From Comamonas badia DSM 17552 (GTDB lineage: Bacteria; Pseudomonadota; Gammaproteobacteria; Burkholderiales; Burkholderiaceae_C), in the NCBI RefSeq assembly GCF_000484635.1, contig NZ_AXVM01000002.1:186001-250000 (forward strand): DNA of 64,000 bases. The letters are read 5' to 3'. Every line of letters starts with the position of its first letter. Position 1 is the stretch's first letter. Position numbers and translations under genes: made by a program. The notes under the pieces were generated by a model, which was not told the origin of the DNA, ran no database searches, and saw only the letters and a list, made by a program, of their open reading frames with translations. Of the stretch, positions 34,454 through 50,042 are shown piece after piece.

Positions 34454-35305
34454 CTACGCATAGCGTAGCGCGTACGGCGGGCGGCACTGCGCCCACAGGT
34501 GCATCCCGGCCTCGCGCGCCAGTTGCAGCGCCAGGGCGGTCGGCGCGGACACCGTCGCCAGCAGCGCTATATTCAGGCGCGCGCATTTGCGCACCAGCTC
34601 ATAGCTGGTGCGGCTGGTCATCACCACAAAGCCGGGTTCCTGCAGGCGCCCCGTGCGCGCAAGCCGCCCGAGCAGCTTGTCCAGCGCGTTGTGGCGACCC
34701 ACATCCTCCAGCACGTCCTGCAGCTGCCCATCGGGCGTTGCCCAGCCGGCGGCATGCAGCGCACCCGCATCGGCATTGAGCCGCTGGCGCTCGCGCAGCA
34801 CGCCAAACGGCCGCAACACCTCTGCCACACCCAAACCCCCACGCCACGCCGGCGCGGGCATGGGCACGGCGCGCAGATCCAGCGCCTGCAGGCTTTCCAC
34901 GCCGCACAGTCCGCAGCCGGTGCGGCCGGCCAGTGTCCTGCGCCGCTGCTTGAGGCGCTCGAAGTGCCGCGGCGCAATGTCGATCTCCGCCACGCACGCG
35001 GCCTCAGGCGTTCCCGCGCCGTGGTGCCGCACCTCGATGCCGCGGCATTCGCCGGGCTGATCGATGATGCCTTCGCTGAGCGCAAAACCAAGCGCGAAAT
35101 CTTCCAGATCCTGCGGCGTCGCCATCATCACCGCATGCGAGATGTCGTTGAAGACCAAGGCAACCGGCACCTCGCTGGCCACCCATGCCTCGCGGTGTGC
35201 CGGCTCTGCCGCCCCATCGGAGCACATGCGCAGCGCCTGCACTGCCGCCAGCGGCTCAATCCGTGAGCGCGATGCGTTGACCGCTCCGGGAATGTTGATG
35301 TCCAT
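34454..35305 (-). CDS. fdhD: formate dehydrogenase accessory sulfurtransferase
   Basis: Transfers sulfur from a cysteine desulfurase to the molybdenum cofactor of formate dehydrogenase. The 283-residue protein has the essential Cys pair Cys131/Cys134 in RTGCGLCGVESL, the family segment EDVGRHNALDKLLG and SRTSYELVRKCA. The stop codon lies in a palindrome (34453-34469). It is the nearest gene to the methanethiol oxidase and diverges from it across 181 bp. Formate dehydrogenase itself is not in the window; the gene would support oxidation of formate formed from formaldehyde. Confidence 0.94.
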   Translation of the reverse strand: MDINIPGAVNASRSRIEPLAAVQALRMCSDGAAEPAHREAWVASEVPVALVFNDISHAVMMATPQDLEDFALGFALSEGIIDQPGECRGIEVRHHGAGTPEAACVAEIDIAPRHFERLKQRRRTLAGRTGCGLCGVESLQALDLRAVPMPAPAWRGGLGVAEVLRPFGVLRERQRLNADAGALHAAGWATPDGQLQDVLEDVGRHNALDKLLGRLARTGRLQEPGFVVMTSRTSYELVRKCARLNIALLATVSAPTALALQLAREAGMHLWAQCRPPYALRYA

Positions 35306-35486
35306 GAAATGCCCTGAAACCTGCTCGCTTCCGATTGTGATCCAGCACGCCTGCGTGCCACCACTGTCTTGCTGGCATATAGCATAAGCAATTACGTATA
35401 AACCCTAGTTGCCCAGGAAAAAAACTGCCTTCAATATCAGGCGCAGGTGATGCTATGTCGCTCGCCACCATTTCAGGAGACCTTTC

Positions 35487-36839
35487 ATGACGTTTCCCCG
35501 AGTTCACACATTGGTCCACGCTCTGGTCATCGCGGGCCTGGCAACCCTGGGCGCTGCAGCCGTCACGAGCGCATCGGCCGACGAGACCTGCAACTCCCCC
35601 TACACCGCCAACCTGATCAAGGGGCAGGAAGACTTCGTCCACGTCTGGACCCTGGGCATCAAGGGCATGGGCGATGGCAACGACAAACTCGTCACCATAG
35701 ACGCGAATCCCAAATCGAAGCATTACGGCAAGGTCATCGACAAAATCTCCCTGCCGGGCCGCGGCGAAGCGCACCACATGGGCTTCTCCGATGACAGGCG
35801 CTACCTGTGGGGCGGACGGCTCGATGACAACAAGATCTTTGTCTTCGACCTGATCAACCCGGCCAAGCCCAAGCTGATCAAGACCATCGCCAACATCGAA
35901 TCCAAGACCGGCTTCGTCGGCCCGCACACCTTCTATGCCATGCCTGGCCGCATGCTGGTACAGGCCCTGTCCAACAACAAGGACCACGGTGGTCAGACCG
36001 GTCTGGTGATGTTCAACAACAAGGGCGACATCGTGGACAGCTACCCCATGCCCACGACCGAAATCGGCGGCGTGAAGGGCGATGGCTACGGTTACGACAT
36101 CGCCATCGACCCTGGGAAAAACGTCATGCTCACCTCCAGCTTCACCGGCTGGAACAACTACATGATGGACTTGGGCAAGATGGTCAAGGACCCGGATGCC
36201 ATGAAGCAGTTCGGCAACACCATGGCCGTATGGGACGTGAAATCCATGAAGCCCACCCAGGTACTCAGCGTACCCGGTGCGCCGCTGGAAATCCGCTGGT
36301 CGCTCAACCCCAACGACCACTGGGCCGTGACCGCCACCGCGCTCACCTCCAAGATCTGGCTCATCAAGCAGGACGCCAGCGGTCAATGGGTCGCCAAGGA
36401 CGTTGCCGACATCGGCGACCCGTCCAAGGTACCGCTGCCCGTGGACATCAGCATCACCGCCGATGGCAAAGGCCTGTGGGTCAACACCTTCCTGGATGGC
36501 AAGACACGCTACTTCGACATGACCGATCCGGAGCACCCCAAGGAAACCTACTCCATCACGACGGGCCCGCAGGTCAACATGGTCTCGCAAAGCTGGGACG
36601 GCAAGCGCGTGTACCTCACCTCCTCGCTGCTGGCCAACTGGGACAAGAAGGGCAAGGACAACGAACAGGTGCTGCGCGCCTTTGACTGGGACGGGCAGAA
36701 GCTCACCGAAAAATTCGAAGTGGATTTTGCCGCGCTCAAGCTCGGCCGCGCGCACCACATGAAGTTCAGTGCCCGCCCAGCCGGCAAGACGCTGGCGGAC
36801 CTGGGCAATCTATCGGTCGCCCAGGCACCGCAGCAGTAA
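35487..36839 (+). CDS. mtoX: methanethiol oxidase (SBP56/SELENBP1 family)
   Basis: Copper-dependent oxidation of methanethiol to formaldehyde, hydrogen sulfide and hydrogen peroxide, as shown for the Hyphomicrobium enzyme. The 450-residue precursor has a signal peptide of about 31 residues (ending near SASA), so it is periplasmic. SBP56 features are DETCNSPYTANLIKGQE with the conserved Cys35, GRGEAHHMGFSDD, GYGYDIAIDPGKNVMLTSSF, and a C-terminal GRAHHMKFS. Several His residues are likely metal ligands. The next gene overlaps the TAA by one base. The upstream 181 bp hold an AT-rich stretch with a TTGCT/AGCAA inverted pair (35369-35391), a possible regulator site. Confidence 0.93.
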   Translation: MTFPRVHTLVHALVIAGLATLGAAAVTSASADETCNSPYTANLIKGQEDFVHVWTLGIKGMGDGNDKLVTIDANPKSKHYGKVIDKISLPGRGEAHHMGFSDDRRYLWGGRLDDNKIFVFDLINPAKPKLIKTIANIESKTGFVGPHTFYAMPGRMLVQALSNNKDHGGQTGLVMFNNKGDIVDSYPMPTTEIGGVKGDGYGYDIAIDPGKNVMLTSSFTGWNNYMMDLGKMVKDPDAMKQFGNTMAVWDVKSMKPTQVLSVPGAPLEIRWSLNPNDHWAVTATALTSKIWLIKQDASGQWVAKDVADIGDPSKVPLPVDISITADGKGLWVNTFLDGKTRYFDMTDPEHPKETYSITTGPQVNMVSQSWDGKRVYLTSSLLANWDKKGKDNEQVLRAFDWDGQKLTEKFEVDFAALKLGRAHHMKFSARPAGKTLADLGNLSVAQAPQQ

Positions 36840-37522
36840 TGCTGGCTCGGCGCACGCTTCTGGGTGCCGCGGCGCTGGCCCCCTTGTGGGCGCGCGCCGC
36901 GAGCGACGCATCGAACCAGACCTTGCGTGCCGCTCCGGTCGACATCGGTGCGCTGCCGGCGCCCGGCACCTACAAGCTGGCACGCATCGACACCGCGCCC
37001 ACCGGCGCGGTACTCGATACACAGGCCCGCACGCACCAGCTCAACGCTCTGCTGCGCGGCCGCATCAGCATCGTCTCCTTCATCTACACCTACTGCCGCG
37101 ATCCGGAAGGCTGCCCGCAGGCCTGGGCGGCTCTGGAGCAACTGCGCGACTCGCTTGGCAAGGATGAGCGCCTTGCCAGACGGGCCCAGATCGTCAGCAT
37201 CAGCTTCGACCCATCGAACGACACGCCGCAGACCATGCGCCTGTTCGCCGGCGCGTACGCCACCGACCCACGCGTTCGCTGGCAGTTCTTGACGACCGCA
37301 TCCGTATCCGCCCTGTTGCCGCTGCTCGATGGCTTCGGTCAGGACGTGAGCGTGGAAATGGGCACCGATGGCAAGCCCACGCGTACGCTCAACCACCTGC
37401 TCAAGCTCTTCCTGGTGGACGCCAGGCTGCAGGTGCGCGAGATCTACAGCATCGCCACACTCGCGCCCCAGGCGCTTCTGAACGATATGCAGACCTTGCG
37501 CATGGAGGAATCCGGGGCATGA
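36839..37522 (+). CDS. SCO1/SenC-type copper chaperone
   Basis: A periplasmic thioredoxin-fold copper-delivery protein. The 227-residue precursor starts with MLARRTLLGAAALAPLWARA, a hydrophobic signal with an RR pair. The likely copper ligands are Cys86 and Cys92 in YTYCRDPEGCPQ and His186 in LNHLLKLFLVD. Classical SCO proteins have CxxxC; here the spacing is Cx5C, which is unusual. Its ATG shares a base with the mtoX stop, so it is translationally coupled and is the obvious source of copper for that enzyme, consistent with mtoX loci in other bacteria. mauG overlaps its 3' end as ATGA. Confidence 0.85.
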   Translation: MLARRTLLGAAALAPLWARAASDASNQTLRAAPVDIGALPAPGTYKLARIDTAPTGAVLDTQARTHQLNALLRGRISIVSFIYTYCRDPEGCPQAWAALEQLRDSLGKDERLARRAQIVSISFDPSNDTPQTMRLFAGAYATDPRVRWQFLTTASVSALLPLLDGFGQDVSVEMGTDGKPTRTLNHLLKLFLVDARLQVREIYSIATLAPQALLNDMQTLRMEESGA

Positions 37523-38604
37523 ACAGATACCGGTTGCTGGCCACTCTTTGCACGTCGTTTGTCCTTGTTTTTGCAGCCGCTGCGGAGAAAGTTCCAGCAC
37601 TGGGCCTGCCGCCGCTGGCCACGCCGCCTGCCGCACAGGTGGCACTGGGCAAGAAATTGTTTTTCGACCGCCGCCTGTCCATCAATGGCACGCTCTCCTG
37701 CGCCATGTGCCACGTTCCCGAGCAGGCCTTCACGGTCAACGAAATTCGTACCGCGGTCGGCATGGAAGGGGTCAGCCTGCGGCGCAGCGCGCCTTCGCTG
37801 CTGAACGTGGCTTATGCCACCTCGATGTTTCACGACGGACGCGCAAAGACGCTGGAAGACCAGGCGCTTCAGCCCATGCTCGAAGATGACGAAATGGCCA
37901 ACCCGGACATCGAAACGGTCATGCGCCGGATCAACGCGATGAAGGAATACCGCGGACCGTACAAAAAGGCCTTTGGCAGCACCCGCGCCACGCCAGAACG
38001 CACAGCGCGCGCGCTGGCCGCCTATGAGCGCACCCTGATCGCGGCCAACAGCCCGTTTGACCGCTGGCACTACGGCAAAGACGCCGGCGCCATGCCGGAA
38101 CAGGCCCGGCGCGGATTTGCCCTCTTCGTGAAAAATGGCTGCGCCAGTTGCCACACGCTGGGCGAAAGGGATGCCCTCTTCAGTGACGGGCAGTTCCACA
38201 ACACCGGGGTGCAGGCGCGTACCGAAGCGCTCAATAAGCTAAGCGTGACCTACACCCTCGTGCCGGGCCTGCAGTCCACCATGGACCCGGAAACACTGGC
38301 GCGCGTCGGCGTTCCCGACCAGGACGACCTCGGGCGCTACGAAGTCACCAAACAGCGCCGCGACCTGCGCGCGTTCAGAACACCCACCTTGCGCAACGTC
38401 GGTGTGACAGGACCCTACATGCACGACGGTTCCCTGACCACGCTGGGAGACGTTCTGGATTTCTATGCGGCGGGAGGCATCCCGTCAGACAAGGCGCAAG
38501 ACCCATTGATCCAACCCTTCGCGATGACTGTGCAAGACCGTGAAGCTATGCTTGCGTTCCTGGATGCCTTGACTTCTTCGGATGCCCGCACATTCCCGCG
38601 CTGA
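37519..38604 (+). CDS. MauG-like di-haem cytochrome c peroxidase family protein
   Basis: A periplasmic di-haem c protein of 361 residues with a signal peptide (to about residue 22) and two haem sites, Cys61-Cys64-His65 (CAMCH) and Cys208-Cys211-His212 (CASCH). The sequence also has RRSAPSLLNVAYATSMFHDGRA and FRTPTLRNVGVTGPYMHDGS, standard for the family. MauG modifies a partner enzyme's residues with peroxide; other members reduce peroxide. In mtoX loci it is thought to mature the oxidase; peroxide removal is the alternative, since the oxidase produces it. The ATGA overlap with the SCO gene shows tight coupling. Confidence 0.88.
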   Translation: MNRYRLLATLCTSFVLVFAAAAEKVPALGLPPLATPPAAQVALGKKLFFDRRLSINGTLSCAMCHVPEQAFTVNEIRTAVGMEGVSLRRSAPSLLNVAYATSMFHDGRAKTLEDQALQPMLEDDEMANPDIETVMRRINAMKEYRGPYKKAFGSTRATPERTARALAAYERTLIAANSPFDRWHYGKDAGAMPEQARRGFALFVKNGCASCHTLGERDALFSDGQFHNTGVQARTEALNKLSVTYTLVPGLQSTMDPETLARVGVPDQDDLGRYEVTKQRRDLRAFRTPTLRNVGVTGPYMHDGSLTTLGDVLDFYAAGGIPSDKAQDPLIQPFAMTVQDREAMLAFLDALTSSDARTFPR

Positions 38605-38659
38605 ATATCCGCGCGCGCGGTTCTCCCGCATCGCGACCATGATCGAAAGCCTTTGAGCC

Positions 38660-39367
38660 ATGCGCCTGAATGCAGATGTTTCCCGGCGTGCCGTTGTCCA
38701 CTCGGCAGAACTGCCCTGGCTCGCGTCCCCCTTGCCCGGGGTGGAGCGCCGCATGCTGGCGCGCGACGGCGACGAAGTGGCTGTAGCCACCTCCATGGTC
38801 CGCTACGCCCCGGGCTCACGGTTCTCGCGGCACGTGCACGAGCTGGGGGAGGAATTCTTCGTGCTGGAAGGCGAGTTCTGCGACGAGGCGGGCAACTACG
38901 GCCCAGGCACCTATGTGCGCAATCCGCACGGCTCGTCGCATGCGCCCTGGTCGGTCACTGGCTGCACCATTTTCGTGAAGCTGCGGCAGATGCTGGCGCA
39001 CGATCAGCAACGGGTGGTGGTCGATACGCGTACCGCGCAATGGCAACCCGGCCTGGTCCCCGGCCTCGCCGTGATGCCTCTCGCCACTTTCGAGACGCGC
39101 CACACGGCCCTGGTGCGCTGGGCGCCCGGGACGCAATTTCAATCGCATCGGCATTTGGGCGGTGAGGAAATTCTGGTACTGGCCGGTGTCTTCGAGGACG
39201 AGCATGGCTGTTATCCTCAAGGCACCTGGCTGCGCAACCCGCATCTGAGCGAGCACCGCCCTTTCAGCGCGCAAGGCTGCACCATTCTGGTCAAGACCGG
39301 GCACCTGGCTCAGGCTGCCAATGGCAAACCCGGCACCGACGGTCACGCCTACGCAGCCAGCCGCTGA
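38660..39367 (+). CDS. two-domain cupin protein, ChrR-cupin-like
   Basis: A 235-residue cytosolic protein made of two related cupin domains. Each has a histidine-rich motif: SRHVHELGEEFFVLEG and SHRHLGGEEILVLAG. Each ends with a similar RNPH plus GCTI segment, so an ancient duplication is visible. The cupins resemble the C-terminal domain of ChrR, the anti-sigma factor that senses singlet oxygen or peroxide, but the zinc-binding anti-sigma domain is missing. It follows mauG by 55 bp and precedes frmA by 33 bp on the same strand. A redox-sensing or enzyme role is unproven. Confidence 0.8.
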   Translation: MRLNADVSRRAVVHSAELPWLASPLPGVERRMLARDGDEVAVATSMVRYAPGSRFSRHVHELGEEFFVLEGEFCDEAGNYGPGTYVRNPHGSSHAPWSVTGCTIFVKLRQMLAHDQQRVVVDTRTAQWQPGLVPGLAVMPLATFETRHTALVRWAPGTQFQSHRHLGGEEILVLAGVFEDEHGCYPQGTWLRNPHLSEHRPFSAQGCTILVKTGHLAQAANGKPGTDGHAYAASR

Positions 39368-40513
<1,146 letters not shown>

Positions 40514-40580
40514 TGGCGCCCGCGCGAGAGGTGCGGCGGCGCCCCTCGCGCGCAATGCTGGACGAACTCCGCCGTGACGG

Positions 40581-40745
40581 CTATTCAGGCATGGAGCAAT
40601 GTCCGCCCTTGGTCGCCTGGCCCGATCCGGCGGCAATGGGCGCAAGCTCCCAGCGCAAATCCACCGTCGGTGATACCTTGTAATCCCAGACAATGAAAGT
40701 CGAAAAAAGCACCCAGAAAATGGTGCGCAGCATCGCGGGTTTCAT
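40581..40745 (-). CDS. 54-residue membrane-anchored peptide after the sulfur transporter gene
   Basis: A short frame of 54 codons from ATG at 40745 to TAG at 40581. The product starts MKPAMLRTIFWVLFSTFIVW, a clear hydrophobic helix of about 16 residues after a basic start, and has a hydrophilic tail ending HCSMPE. It begins 14 bases after the YeeE/YedE stop on the same strand, with TGGGGG as a possible ribosome site six bases upstream, so it may be translated with the transporter. No known family is recognised. It could be a small transporter subunit or a secreted metal-binding peptide. Confidence 0.5.
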   Translation of the reverse strand: MKPAMLRTIFWVLFSTFIVWDYKVSPTVDLRWELAPIAAGSGQATKGGHCSMPE

Positions 40746-40759
40746 TGCTTAGCCCCCAC

Positions 40760-41857
40760 TCAGTAGCCCAGCCGCCGGCGGATGCGCAGGCCGAAAACGG
40801 TGCCCGCAAAGGCCATTGGCGCCCAGATCCAGCCGTGAATCGAACCGGTGGAAATGCCGGAGAACATCGCGCCGATATTGCAGCCAAACGCCAGGCGCGA
40901 GCTGTAGCCCAGCAAAAGCCCGGCACACAGTGCCACGGCCCATTGCTTGCCCGTCATGGCCTTGTGCGACGCGGGTTTGCCGGCACCCACCCACAGCGCA
41001 CCGGCAAGGAGGCCGATGTTGGTGACCGTGGTCACGTCCAGCAGCACCGTCTGTTGCAGGATGGCCGCGTTGTCGGGCAGGCTCCAGAACCAGTTGTGGG
41101 CAGGATCGATCACGCCCGCAGAATCGGCGATCTTCGCGACCCACAGCCCCGGGCCGTAGATGATGCCCCAGGGGTTGCCCGAGACGAACAGGGCCAGGGC
41201 GGCAAACACCGCAATCAGGATGGCACCCACGACCCACTTGCGCGTGAACAGCCTTGGCGCCACCGCCCCACGCGATCGGTGCCAGAACCGCGTGTACCAG
41301 GCTACACCCGCGCCAATCAGGGCCAGGGCCGCCAGCGTGCCCGCCAGCGCCTTCTGCCAGCCCCATTCGGTGACGAAGCCCACAGGATCGGTGTGCCCCA
41401 AATCGAGCCACCAGCCCAGATGCCAGCTCCCCAGGAAACTCCCGATGCAGAACAGCGGCAGGATGGCGGTATTGAGCGGTATGCCCAGGCCCGCCTTGTA
41501 GAACACGCCGCTGCCGCAGCCATCGGCCACCTGCATGCACAGACCGAAGACGAAGGCGCCCACGAGCAAACTCACACTCGGGGGGCCGAGCGCCGCCGTC
41601 AGCTCCGGGTAATACCCCAGCAGCGGCATGCAAAGAATAGCCGCGAGACCGAACGCGATGAGCTGCCCGATGACACCGCTCGGGTTCTTGTCCTCCACGA
41701 GGATGCGCCACGCGGTGGTAAAACCAAAGCGCTGGCCGGCCAGCGCCACGCCCAAGCCTATGCCGACGAGGAACAGCAGCGCCTGGCGCATGGAAACCGC
41801 CCAGAGCATCCAGGCAAAGAAAGCCGCCATCATGGCGACGAGCGGAAGGCGTTTCAT
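40760..41857 (-). CDS. YeeE/YedE-family sulfur (thiosulfate-type) transporter
   Basis: A 365-residue inner-membrane protein with about 10 hydrophobic helices. YeeE/YedE signatures with key cysteines are visible: FGLCMQVADGCGSGVFYKAG and FGCNIGAMFSG. In TsuA such cysteines relay thiosulfate through the channel; these features are conserved here. Its ATG overlaps the stop of the upstream periplasmic sulfurtransferase gene as ATGA, so a sulfur species handled by that enzyme is the likely substrate. Thiosulfate is the best guess; sulfite or polysulfide are possible. Confidence 0.87.
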   Translation of the reverse strand: MKRLPLVAMMAAFFAWMLWAVSMRQALLFLVGIGLGVALAGQRFGFTTAWRILVEDKNPSGVIGQLIAFGLAAILCMPLLGYYPELTAALGPPSVSLLVGAFVFGLCMQVADGCGSGVFYKAGLGIPLNTAILPLFCIGSFLGSWHLGWWLDLGHTDPVGFVTEWGWQKALAGTLAALALIGAGVAWYTRFWHRSRGAVAPRLFTRKWVVGAILIAVFAALALFVSGNPWGIIYGPGLWVAKIADSAGVIDPAHNWFWSLPDNAAILQQTVLLDVTTVTNIGLLAGALWVGAGKPASHKAMTGKQWAVALCAGLLLGYSSRLAFGCNIGAMFSGISTGSIHGWIWAPMAFAGTVFGLRIRRRLGY

Positions 41858-42789
41858 TGCTTGAGATTCTTCCAGGCCCGCTCAAATGCCTGCGCGATCT
41901 GCGTGCGGCGGCTGGGGGCGTTGAGCATGGGCAGCGGCTCGGGTGCCTGCACCCAATCGACCATGGAGCCCGGGTAGATTTTCACGTCCTTGATGCCCAG
42001 CACCTCGTGCATCTCGAACCAGACGAGCGCCGACCACACGCCGGTATTGCAGAACAGCACCAGATCCTGTCCCTCGGGGCGTTTGATCTCGCTGGCAAGC
42101 GCGCGCGCGGCGTCTGTCGATACCGCGTTGGCCGAACCGTTTTGCACCCAGCGGGTGAAATCCTGCTGCACCGCCCCCGCAATCGTGCCCGCCATAAGCG
42201 CCATCGGCGCCTTGAACCGGCCTTCGTAAAAGTTCTCGGGGCGCACATCCAGCAGCACCGCATCGTGCTTCCTGACATGCTCCAGCACCTGCTCGCGCGT
42301 CGCGGTCCACCGGTCGCTGAAGCGGGGCTGCCAGTCGGTCCTTGCCTGCGCCGCCACGGATTTGGTGGTCTCCTTGCCATCGAAATCCCAGGACTGCATG
42401 CCGCCATCGAGAATGAAGAGCTCTTTCACACCGAGTGACTTGAGCATCCAGTACACCCGCGCGGCGGCGCCAAAATCCGTTCCGTCGCTGCCTGCGGAGA
42501 TCACGGCCACAGGGTTGTCCGGCGTCAGACCCAGGCGCTGCACCAGCGCCACCATGGCCTGCGCGGGCGGCAGGATGCCAAAATTTTCAGGCGGGCCCAG
42601 CCATTCGTTGTAGGGGGCATTCTGCGCACCCTCGATATGCCCACCCGCAAAGCTCTGTGCATCGCGGATATCGACAATGCGCATCCGCGGATTGGAAAGC
42701 AGTGGCTCCAGTCCATCCGAAGTCAGCAGTGGCGGCGCTGCGGCGGCAGCGCCGCACCAGAGAAACAACGCGAAAATCCAATACTTCAT
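41854..42789 (-). CDS. periplasmic double-rhodanese sulfurtransferase
   Basis: A 311-residue precursor with a signal peptide ending near residue 18. Two rhodanese-like domains follow (about 25-140 and 160-300). Only the second has an active cysteine: Cys247 in [11 protein letters not shown], a CNTG loop that I associate with periplasmic sulfurtransferases next to YeeE/YedE genes. The equivalent place in the first domain is Ser98 (ISAGSDGTD), so that half is likely structural, as in thiosulfate sulfurtransferases. Coupled by ATGA to the transporter gene. It may take sulfide or polysulfide formed from methanethiol in the periplasm; that link is inference. Confidence 0.85.
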
Positions 42790-49966: not shown

Positions 49967-50042
49967 TGGTGCCGGTTGTCTGGCTCGAACAGACGACCTT
50001 CCGCTTACAAGGCGGGTGCTCTACCAACTGAGCTAAACCGGC
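49967..50042 (-). tRNA. tRNA-Thr (anticodon TGT)
   Basis: A 76-base cloverleaf with CCA encoded. The acceptor arm GCCGGTT pairs with AACCGGC, the D arm holds AGTTGGTAGA, the anticodon loop is CTTGTAA with TGT in the middle, and the T arm is GTCTG-TTCGAGC-CAGAC. It lies after sspB on the same strand and is probably transcribed separately. Confidence 0.97.

Follow-up and report, generated by a model that had tools for sequence, protein, structure and literature searches.

Do the genes at positions 34,454 to 42,789 of a 64,000-nucleotide stretch of Comamonas badia DSM 17552 (contig NZ_AXVM01000002.1, positions 186,001 to 250,000; hereafter the window) form one methanethiol-degradation pathway with its own carbon and sulfur exits, as an earlier note proposed, or do genes of separate histories adjoin there? 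One strand carries mtoX (methanethiol oxidase), sco (copper chaperone), a mauG-like gene, a cupin gene and frmA, and the other carries fdhD and the genes of a rhodanese and a YeeE/YedE-family transporter (Table 1). The analysis separates genes that arrived together from resident ones, removing a tempting, unsupported methanethiol pathway with its own sulfur exit. The locus very probably consists of two separate modules lying side by side, an inserted methanethiol block and an older rhodanese-yeeE-small-protein operon, which among the genomes examined are adjacent only in the window genome (G000) and its sister (G300).

The gene content described in the earlier note was borne out. All eight named genes were recovered at their positions and on their strands, with families matched by Pfam/NCBIfam. 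The genes mtoX, sco and mauG-like do overlap end to end (by 1 base and 4 bases, respectively), the cupin gene and frmA follow, fdhD diverges from mtoX, and on the opposite strand the gene of a rhodanese with two rhodanese stretches is coupled to yeeE by a 4-base overlap. A small gene beginning 14 bases past the yeeE stop had been overlooked.

Distribution of mtoX and of the rhodanese-yeeE operon

Strong mtoX matches were found in 11 of 299 family genomes (10 above the cut-off, plus G211), and the rhodanese of the operon, counted at E<=1e-50 so that more distant rhodaneses are excluded, in 32 of them. Any mtoX match at all was present in 24 genomes; 13 of these, with weaker SBP56-like matches (<=137.6 bits), were left out of the mtoX count, and none of the 13 is among the 32 rhodanese genomes. 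The two genes coincided in the window genome only: the other 31 genomes with the rhodanese had no mtoX match, and the other 10 genomes with strong mtoX lacked the rhodanese. With the window genome set aside, 10 and 31 of 298 genomes give an expected overlap of 1.04 and an observed one of 0, a difference that is not significant; no association of mtoX with the rhodanese was seen, and the genomes are too few to claim avoidance. Outside this sample, two genus members have both genes, adjacent in G300 and on different contigs in G302.

Neighbourhoods of mtoX were compared at 38 other loci of 3.5-20 kb (10 of the family, one of G302 and 27 class-level places, the last remaining from 29 after exclusion of the window's own place and of G833, which a contig end truncates). 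Both sco and mauG lay near mtoX at 35 of the 38, in agreement with the SBP56-SCO-MauG link to which the earlier note appealed; L136 has neither, and L040 and L046, at contig ends, have sco only. No yeeE of the operon kind, fdhD or ChrR-type double cupin gene was found at any of the 38. An frmA of 63% identity is present at one (L110), with weak dehydrogenase matches at L128 and L131, and weak rhodanese-domain matches occur about 4 kb from mtoX at L124 and L127. Five plasmid records match mtoX at E<=1e-100, each with less than 60% identity. The carbon exit (frmA) at mtoX has precedent, notably in Ruegeria pomeroyi (see below). The rhodanese-yeeE sulfur exit has none among the loci examined and does not accompany mtoX as a conserved partner.

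The earlier note had expected the rhodanese-YeeE pair to recur with mtoX, and had named the gene order around mtoX homologues as the comparison to make and a lack of co-occurrence as the outcome that would speak against it. Outside the sister species, in which alone of the genus the two are again adjacent, a lack of co-occurrence is what was found. Of the joined pathway, the part uniting mtoX, sco and mauG-like with frmA and fdhD stands, as one inserted block; the periplasmic sulfur exit does not, its operon being older and separate. The joined methanethiol-sulfur island as a conserved unit was rejected on the lack of co-occurrence, the empty sites described below and the mtoX neighbourhoods.

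The grxD-yeeE site in the genus

Nine genus genomes were searched for the rhodanese, mtoX, the block and its site (three of the five named relatives recovered by the rhodanese are Comamonas metagenome-assembled genomes). The rhodanese is present in 9/9. In G000 and G300, a block of about 6 kb with the order fdhD / mtoX-sco-mauG-cupin-frmA fills the gap between grxD and yeeE. The same site is empty in six genomes (G095, G196, G270, G301, G302 and G303), where hemK-grxD is followed by yeeE-rhodanese-mutT-ATPase-argJ-secA, fdhD is missing from the locus, and the grxD and yeeE matches lie 206-310 bases apart, leaving space for the small gene alone. (The flanking names prfA, hemK, mutT, argJ and secA were assigned by eye, and grxD from a family search.) The rhodanese-yeeE operon without the block was therefore found in 6 of the 8 other genus genomes; the site of G299 was left unjudged, as its contig stops just past yeeE. 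The rhodanese-YeeE pair of G299 (L066, contig C24) groups with pairs of other genera, away from its own genus, and is unusual in origin or binning.

In an unrooted five-protein tree, G000 and G300 share a single branch (support 1.000). When a tree of the rhodanese and YeeE was rooted on four relatives from the family, the two fell within the group of empty-site genomes; supports ranged from 0.816 to 1.000, some of them (0.816 and 0.886) being moderate. A single insertion in the common ancestor of the window species and its sister would be the simplest account, and is favoured because ancestral presence would require about four losses. In the genus, mtoX occurs in 3/9, frmA in 5/9 and fdhD in 4/9 genomes, and all three mtoX-bearing genomes also have frmA and fdhD. 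In the third of these, G302, the three genes sit on three contigs; its site is empty, and it has another mtoX-sco-mauG set (L099, contig C34) whose mtoX is 65% identical and branches outside the clade of other family mtoX. This mtoX probably represents a separate acquisition.

Against the two-module reading, no repeat among those listed joins the block edges (20 of 39 direct, 25 of 36 inverted), no tRNA gene lies near the block (the only one in the window is at 49967), and no clear G+C step was detected, the block resembling its surroundings; since no insertion scar was seen, the insertion reading rests on synteny and the tree. Moreover, the sample holds only 10 other mtoX genomes, and 0 against 1.04 overlaps leaves room for a weak association. 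The unscarred edges, the lack of a nearby tRNA gene and the even G+C content are what would be expected if the block were ancestral in the genus and had been lost from the other species, the neighbourhood being old. We regard this as quite improbable, since on the rooted tree six genes would have had to be lost cleanly from a single spot on about four separate occasions, and since the mtoX of G302 belongs to a different gene lineage. Nor do we think it likely that the inserted methanethiol oxidase now cooperates with the rhodanese and YeeE encoded next to it, the two taking up the sulfane sulfur that it would release in the periplasm. The Ruegeria enzyme yields sulfane sulfur and not sulfide (PMC10936201; papers are cited here and below by identifier, for selected passages of each), which is a plausible rhodanese substrate, MtoX and the rhodanese both look exported, and the block directly adjoins the operon in both carriers. 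However, 31 of the 298 other family genomes have the rhodanese but no mtoX, none of the other mtoX genomes of that sample has the rhodanese, the two lie on different contigs in G302, and yeeE of the operon kind is beside 0/38 other mtoX loci. Insertion beside an older, separate operon is thus preferred. Promoter and terminator scans gave values close to those of shuffles.

The rhodanese-yeeE operon and its small protein

The small gene of the operon encodes 54 amino acids with one hydrophobic stretch and a GxG...GHC tail at the C-terminus. In an alignment of 30 sequences (A1), residues W11, D21, S25, E33, G40, G42, H49 and C50 are invariant, and no convincing Pfam/NCBIfam match was obtained (the best E values were 0.019, in 2 of the 30 members, and 0.087, in 1). 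Of the 55 non-window rhodanese loci scanned with a profile built from A1, 54 have yeeE, and the small protein was found at all 54; 0/39 other mtoX loci carry it, and it is likewise absent from two other YeeE regions of the window genome. Of the 54 loci, 42 were found via the rhodanese and 12 via the profile itself (10 of 13 order-sample and 2 of 5 phylum-sample matches, outside the family), and 29 of the 30 rows of A1 come from tested loci; the 13 loci that are outside A1 and were not found by the profile (6 of the family and 7 on plasmids) also all match. At least 12 places outside the family carry the small protein, part of the candidates having been scored, and 12/12 adjoin the rhodanese and yeeE.

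In other genera of the family, yeeE comes after the rhodanese at 27 of 28 loci. In 7/7 rhodanese-bearing plasmid records, all of Rhodobacterales, YeeE is followed by a small "hypothetical protein"; four translated alphaproteobacterial small proteins keep the cysteine, the preceding histidine being not always kept. Paracoccus alcaliphilus is one carrier of the operon. The three-gene unit therefore occurs in Alphaproteobacteria, in the family of the window and in other families of its order, so that this candidate partner of YeeE spans two bacterial classes. Among the 14 largest neighbour clusters listed for 40 loci, only the rhodanese, yeeE and overlapping frames recurred at more than 8 loci. 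No description of the three-gene unit was found in titles and abstract openings of the open-licence PubMed Central literature on YeeE/YedE, and the small protein is apparently an undescribed partner of YeeE transporters. The rhodanese has two rhodanese domains, with the active-site cysteine, Cys247, in the second (conserved in 56/56), and an N-terminus that is signal-peptide-like as judged by eye.

Two further arrangements were observed. In the family genome G042, the rhodanese lacks both yeeE and the small protein (L078), and a Gly-type YeeE occurs elsewhere without the small protein nearby (L170, C27), a possible breakdown or split of the three-gene unit. The window genome has a second rhodanese (L047, contig C6:264354-267404; 33% identity); two YeeE genes of half size, PmpAB-like, lie about 1 kb away from it, and the profile scan found no small protein there.

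The AlphaFold model of the window YeeE (predicted local distance difference test score of 92.3) has the thiosulfate transporter TsuA (PDB 6leo) as its best PDB match (Foldseek E value of 2.8e-9, template modelling score of 0.71 by query length). The relay of TsuA comprises cysteines C22, C91 and C293, C22 being the third, cytoplasmic-side one (PMC11073785). Profile alignment to 6leo pairs Cys114 with C91, Cys326 with C293 and Gly45 with C22, so that the window protein has two of the three, and it scores 38 bits against the curated TsuA family NF052577 (cut-off 400). Cys114 and Cys326 are invariant in the 55 aligned partner YeeE proteins, the window's included, and Gly45 is present in 55/55. 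In contrast, when the 30 best-scoring YeeE loci of other kinds in the same family served as controls, cysteine occupied the third position in 23 of the 24 alignable proteins, and the small protein lay within 1.5 kb of 0/30. A YeeE branch without the third relay cysteine, wherever it was seen with its rhodanese, thus travels with a one-cysteine small protein. No YeeD/TusA gene is present in the operon, which is the extent of the search for TusA in this genome.

The combination of Gly-type YeeE with the small protein suggests that YeeE sulfur transfer exists in a new form with three components. We infer its direction, its substrate and each of its steps as follows: the periplasmic rhodanese would carry sulfane sulfur on Cys247, the single cysteine of the small protein would relay it onward, and YeeE would move it over the membrane, with Cys326 on the periplasmic side, Cys114 in the middle and Gly at the third position. 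Tentatively, we propose that the small protein is a membrane-associated, sulfur-carrying arm and that its cysteine substitutes, from outside the channel, for the lost relay cysteine of YeeE, persulfide sulfur passing from the rhodanese via the small protein to YeeE (or outward) with no adjacent TusA-type partner. A stand-in for a periplasmic YeeE cysteine was also considered, and was dropped since C22 is the third, cytoplasmic-side one. The proposal bears on the cargo of YeeE and on how sulfane sulfur may be handed over without exposing free polysulfide, and the constant company of a one-cysteine microprotein and a cysteine-deficient channel makes the hand-over question directly testable.

Several observations count against a relay through the small protein. 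One control YeeE (L170) has Gly with no small protein nearby, and another (L176) retains Cys despite a nearby rhodanese. In addition, only 12 of 34 small proteins are richer in Lys/Arg before the helix than after it, which leaves the topology unsettled; an A-x-A end of the hydrophobic stretch, seen by eye in some members, favours the periplasm. Small single-helix proteins often stabilise transporters, and the small protein may be an assembly or stability subunit of YeeE whose cysteine is structural rather than a sulfur carrier. Such a role has a parallel in the cysteine-free membrane protein of 56 amino acids beside soxT1A in Hyphomicrobium (PMC11582611). On the other hand, the cysteine of the small protein is invariant (30/30 in A1) and kept in the alphaproteobacterial members mentioned above, and presence of the protein coincides with the cysteine loss in YeeE, both of which speak against a merely structural cysteine.

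The relationship of the operon to known YeeE systems is correspondingly mixed. Like TsuA-TsuB (YeeE-YeeD; PDB 6leo, 8k1r), it has the YeeE fold and cysteines matching C91 and C293 (PMC11073785); unlike TsuA-TsuB, it has Gly for C22, lacks YeeD/TusA, and has as partners a signal-like rhodanese and a one-cysteine small protein. It resembles the SoxT1A module of Hyphomicrobium denitrificans in placing a YeeE-like importer by a sulfurtransferase and a small membrane protein, and differs from it in that SoxT has three cysteines, Rhd442 is described as cytoplasmic and the small protein there has no cysteine (PMC11582611). YedE1E2, which belongs to another branch, imports zero-valent sulfur (PMC10812762).

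The methanethiol block and its proteins

Table 1. Features of the methanethiol block and the adjoining operon, with window coordinates
Feature	Position	Strand	Basis of assignment
fdhD, formate dehydrogenase accessory sulfurtransferase; left edge of inserted block	34454..35305	-	PF02634; TIGR00129 157.9 bits, cut-off 140.9
mtoX, methanethiol oxidase (SBP56)	35487..36839	+	NF052453 755.4 bits, cut-off 650
SCO1/SenC-like copper chaperone	36839..37522	+	PF02630; no NCBIfam match
MauG/MbnH-like di-haem protein, two CxxCH	37519..38604	+	PF03150
Double ChrR-type cupin	38660..39367	+	PF12973, two stretches; TIGR02451 57.7 bits, below cut-off of 124.5
frmA, S-(hydroxymethyl)glutathione dehydrogenase; right edge of inserted block	39401..40513	+	TIGR02818 716 bits, cut-off 544
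Small protein of 54 amino acids, third gene of rhodanese-yeeE operon	40581..40745	-	Present at 54/54 other rhodanese-yeeE loci
YeeE/YedE-family sulfur transporter (Sulf_transp), Gly45/Cys114/Cys326	40760..41857	-	PF04143; profile and fold match to TsuA 6leo
Two-domain rhodanese, Cys247 in second domain	41854..42789	-	PF00581, two stretches; aligns with solved rhodaneses

Ruegeria pomeroyi carries mtoX-SCO-cytochrome c peroxidase-class III alcohol dehydrogenase (frmA) on NC_006569.1, the last gene being presumably SPOA0272, a number that we take from the gene order. The mtoX-SCO1-mauG loci are known from Hyphomicrobium sp. VS and R. pomeroyi DSS-3, and the predicted operon SPOA0268-0272 of the latter is reported to be enhanced by dimethylsulfoniopropionate (PMC5739008). 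The window shares the mtoX-sco-mauG order with both and the presence of frmA with R. pomeroyi; unlike them, it has no IclR gene beside mtoX, and has a cupin gene between mauG and frmA and a divergent fdhD. The mto-clusters of Methylophaga thiooxydans include persulfide dioxygenase, SqrB and SulP (PMC6548844), so that a sulfur exit at mtoX is in itself not a new idea, although the genes there are others. The window resembles them in combining mtoX and SCO1/MauG with genes for released sulfur, but its block and operon lack these three genes, and its sulfur operon predates the block.

MtoX scores above the cut-off of the curated methanethiol-oxidase family and has a signal-peptide-like N-terminus (judged by eye). 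Its residues Cys35, His96, His97, His147 and His423 are kept in 38-40 of 40 aligned mtoX and fit a working copper enzyme; their order agrees with the copper ligands and the cysteine described in PMC5739008 and PMC10936201, His96/97/147/423 having been paired with Hyphomicrobium His89/90/140/412 by order and motif, and the cluster-2 cysteine being that of TCxSPY. From the literature and from inference, a route can be drawn in which the SCO protein (CX5C) would mature MtoX with copper, the MauG-like protein would perhaps give it a tryptophan-derived cofactor, MtoX would cleave methanethiol in the periplasm, giving formaldehyde together with sulfane sulfur or sulfide, the formaldehyde would be consumed by FrmA in the cytoplasm, and FdhD would support a formate dehydrogenase encoded elsewhere.

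The SCO partner has the motif CX5C (CxDxxGCP; Cys86 and Cys92) and His186, conserved in 39/39, with a cysteine spacing two residues longer than in the two best-matching solved SCO proteins. The motif is present in the window and at L037-L046, L059, L099 and L110-L135, is not mentioned in the consulted passages of the literature on mtoX-SCO1-MauG, and may mark a dedicated copper chaperone of MtoX. The CxxCH residues of the di-haem protein are conserved in 36-37 of 37 sequences. Since this protein does not reach the curated cut-off of either MbnH (TIGR04039, 230.1 vs 362.85 bits) or MauG (TIGR03791, 217.4 vs 443.85), it is best named MauG/MbnH-like. The mtoX-linked protein scores slightly higher for MbnH than for MauG, and its product on MtoX may differ from the tryptophan tryptophylquinone proposed in the literature. 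For the cupin encoded between mauG and frmA, the resemblance is limited to the cupin domain of ChrR. The genes fdhD and frmA are the sole matches of their kinds in the genome (at E<=0.001 and E<=1e-100, respectively).

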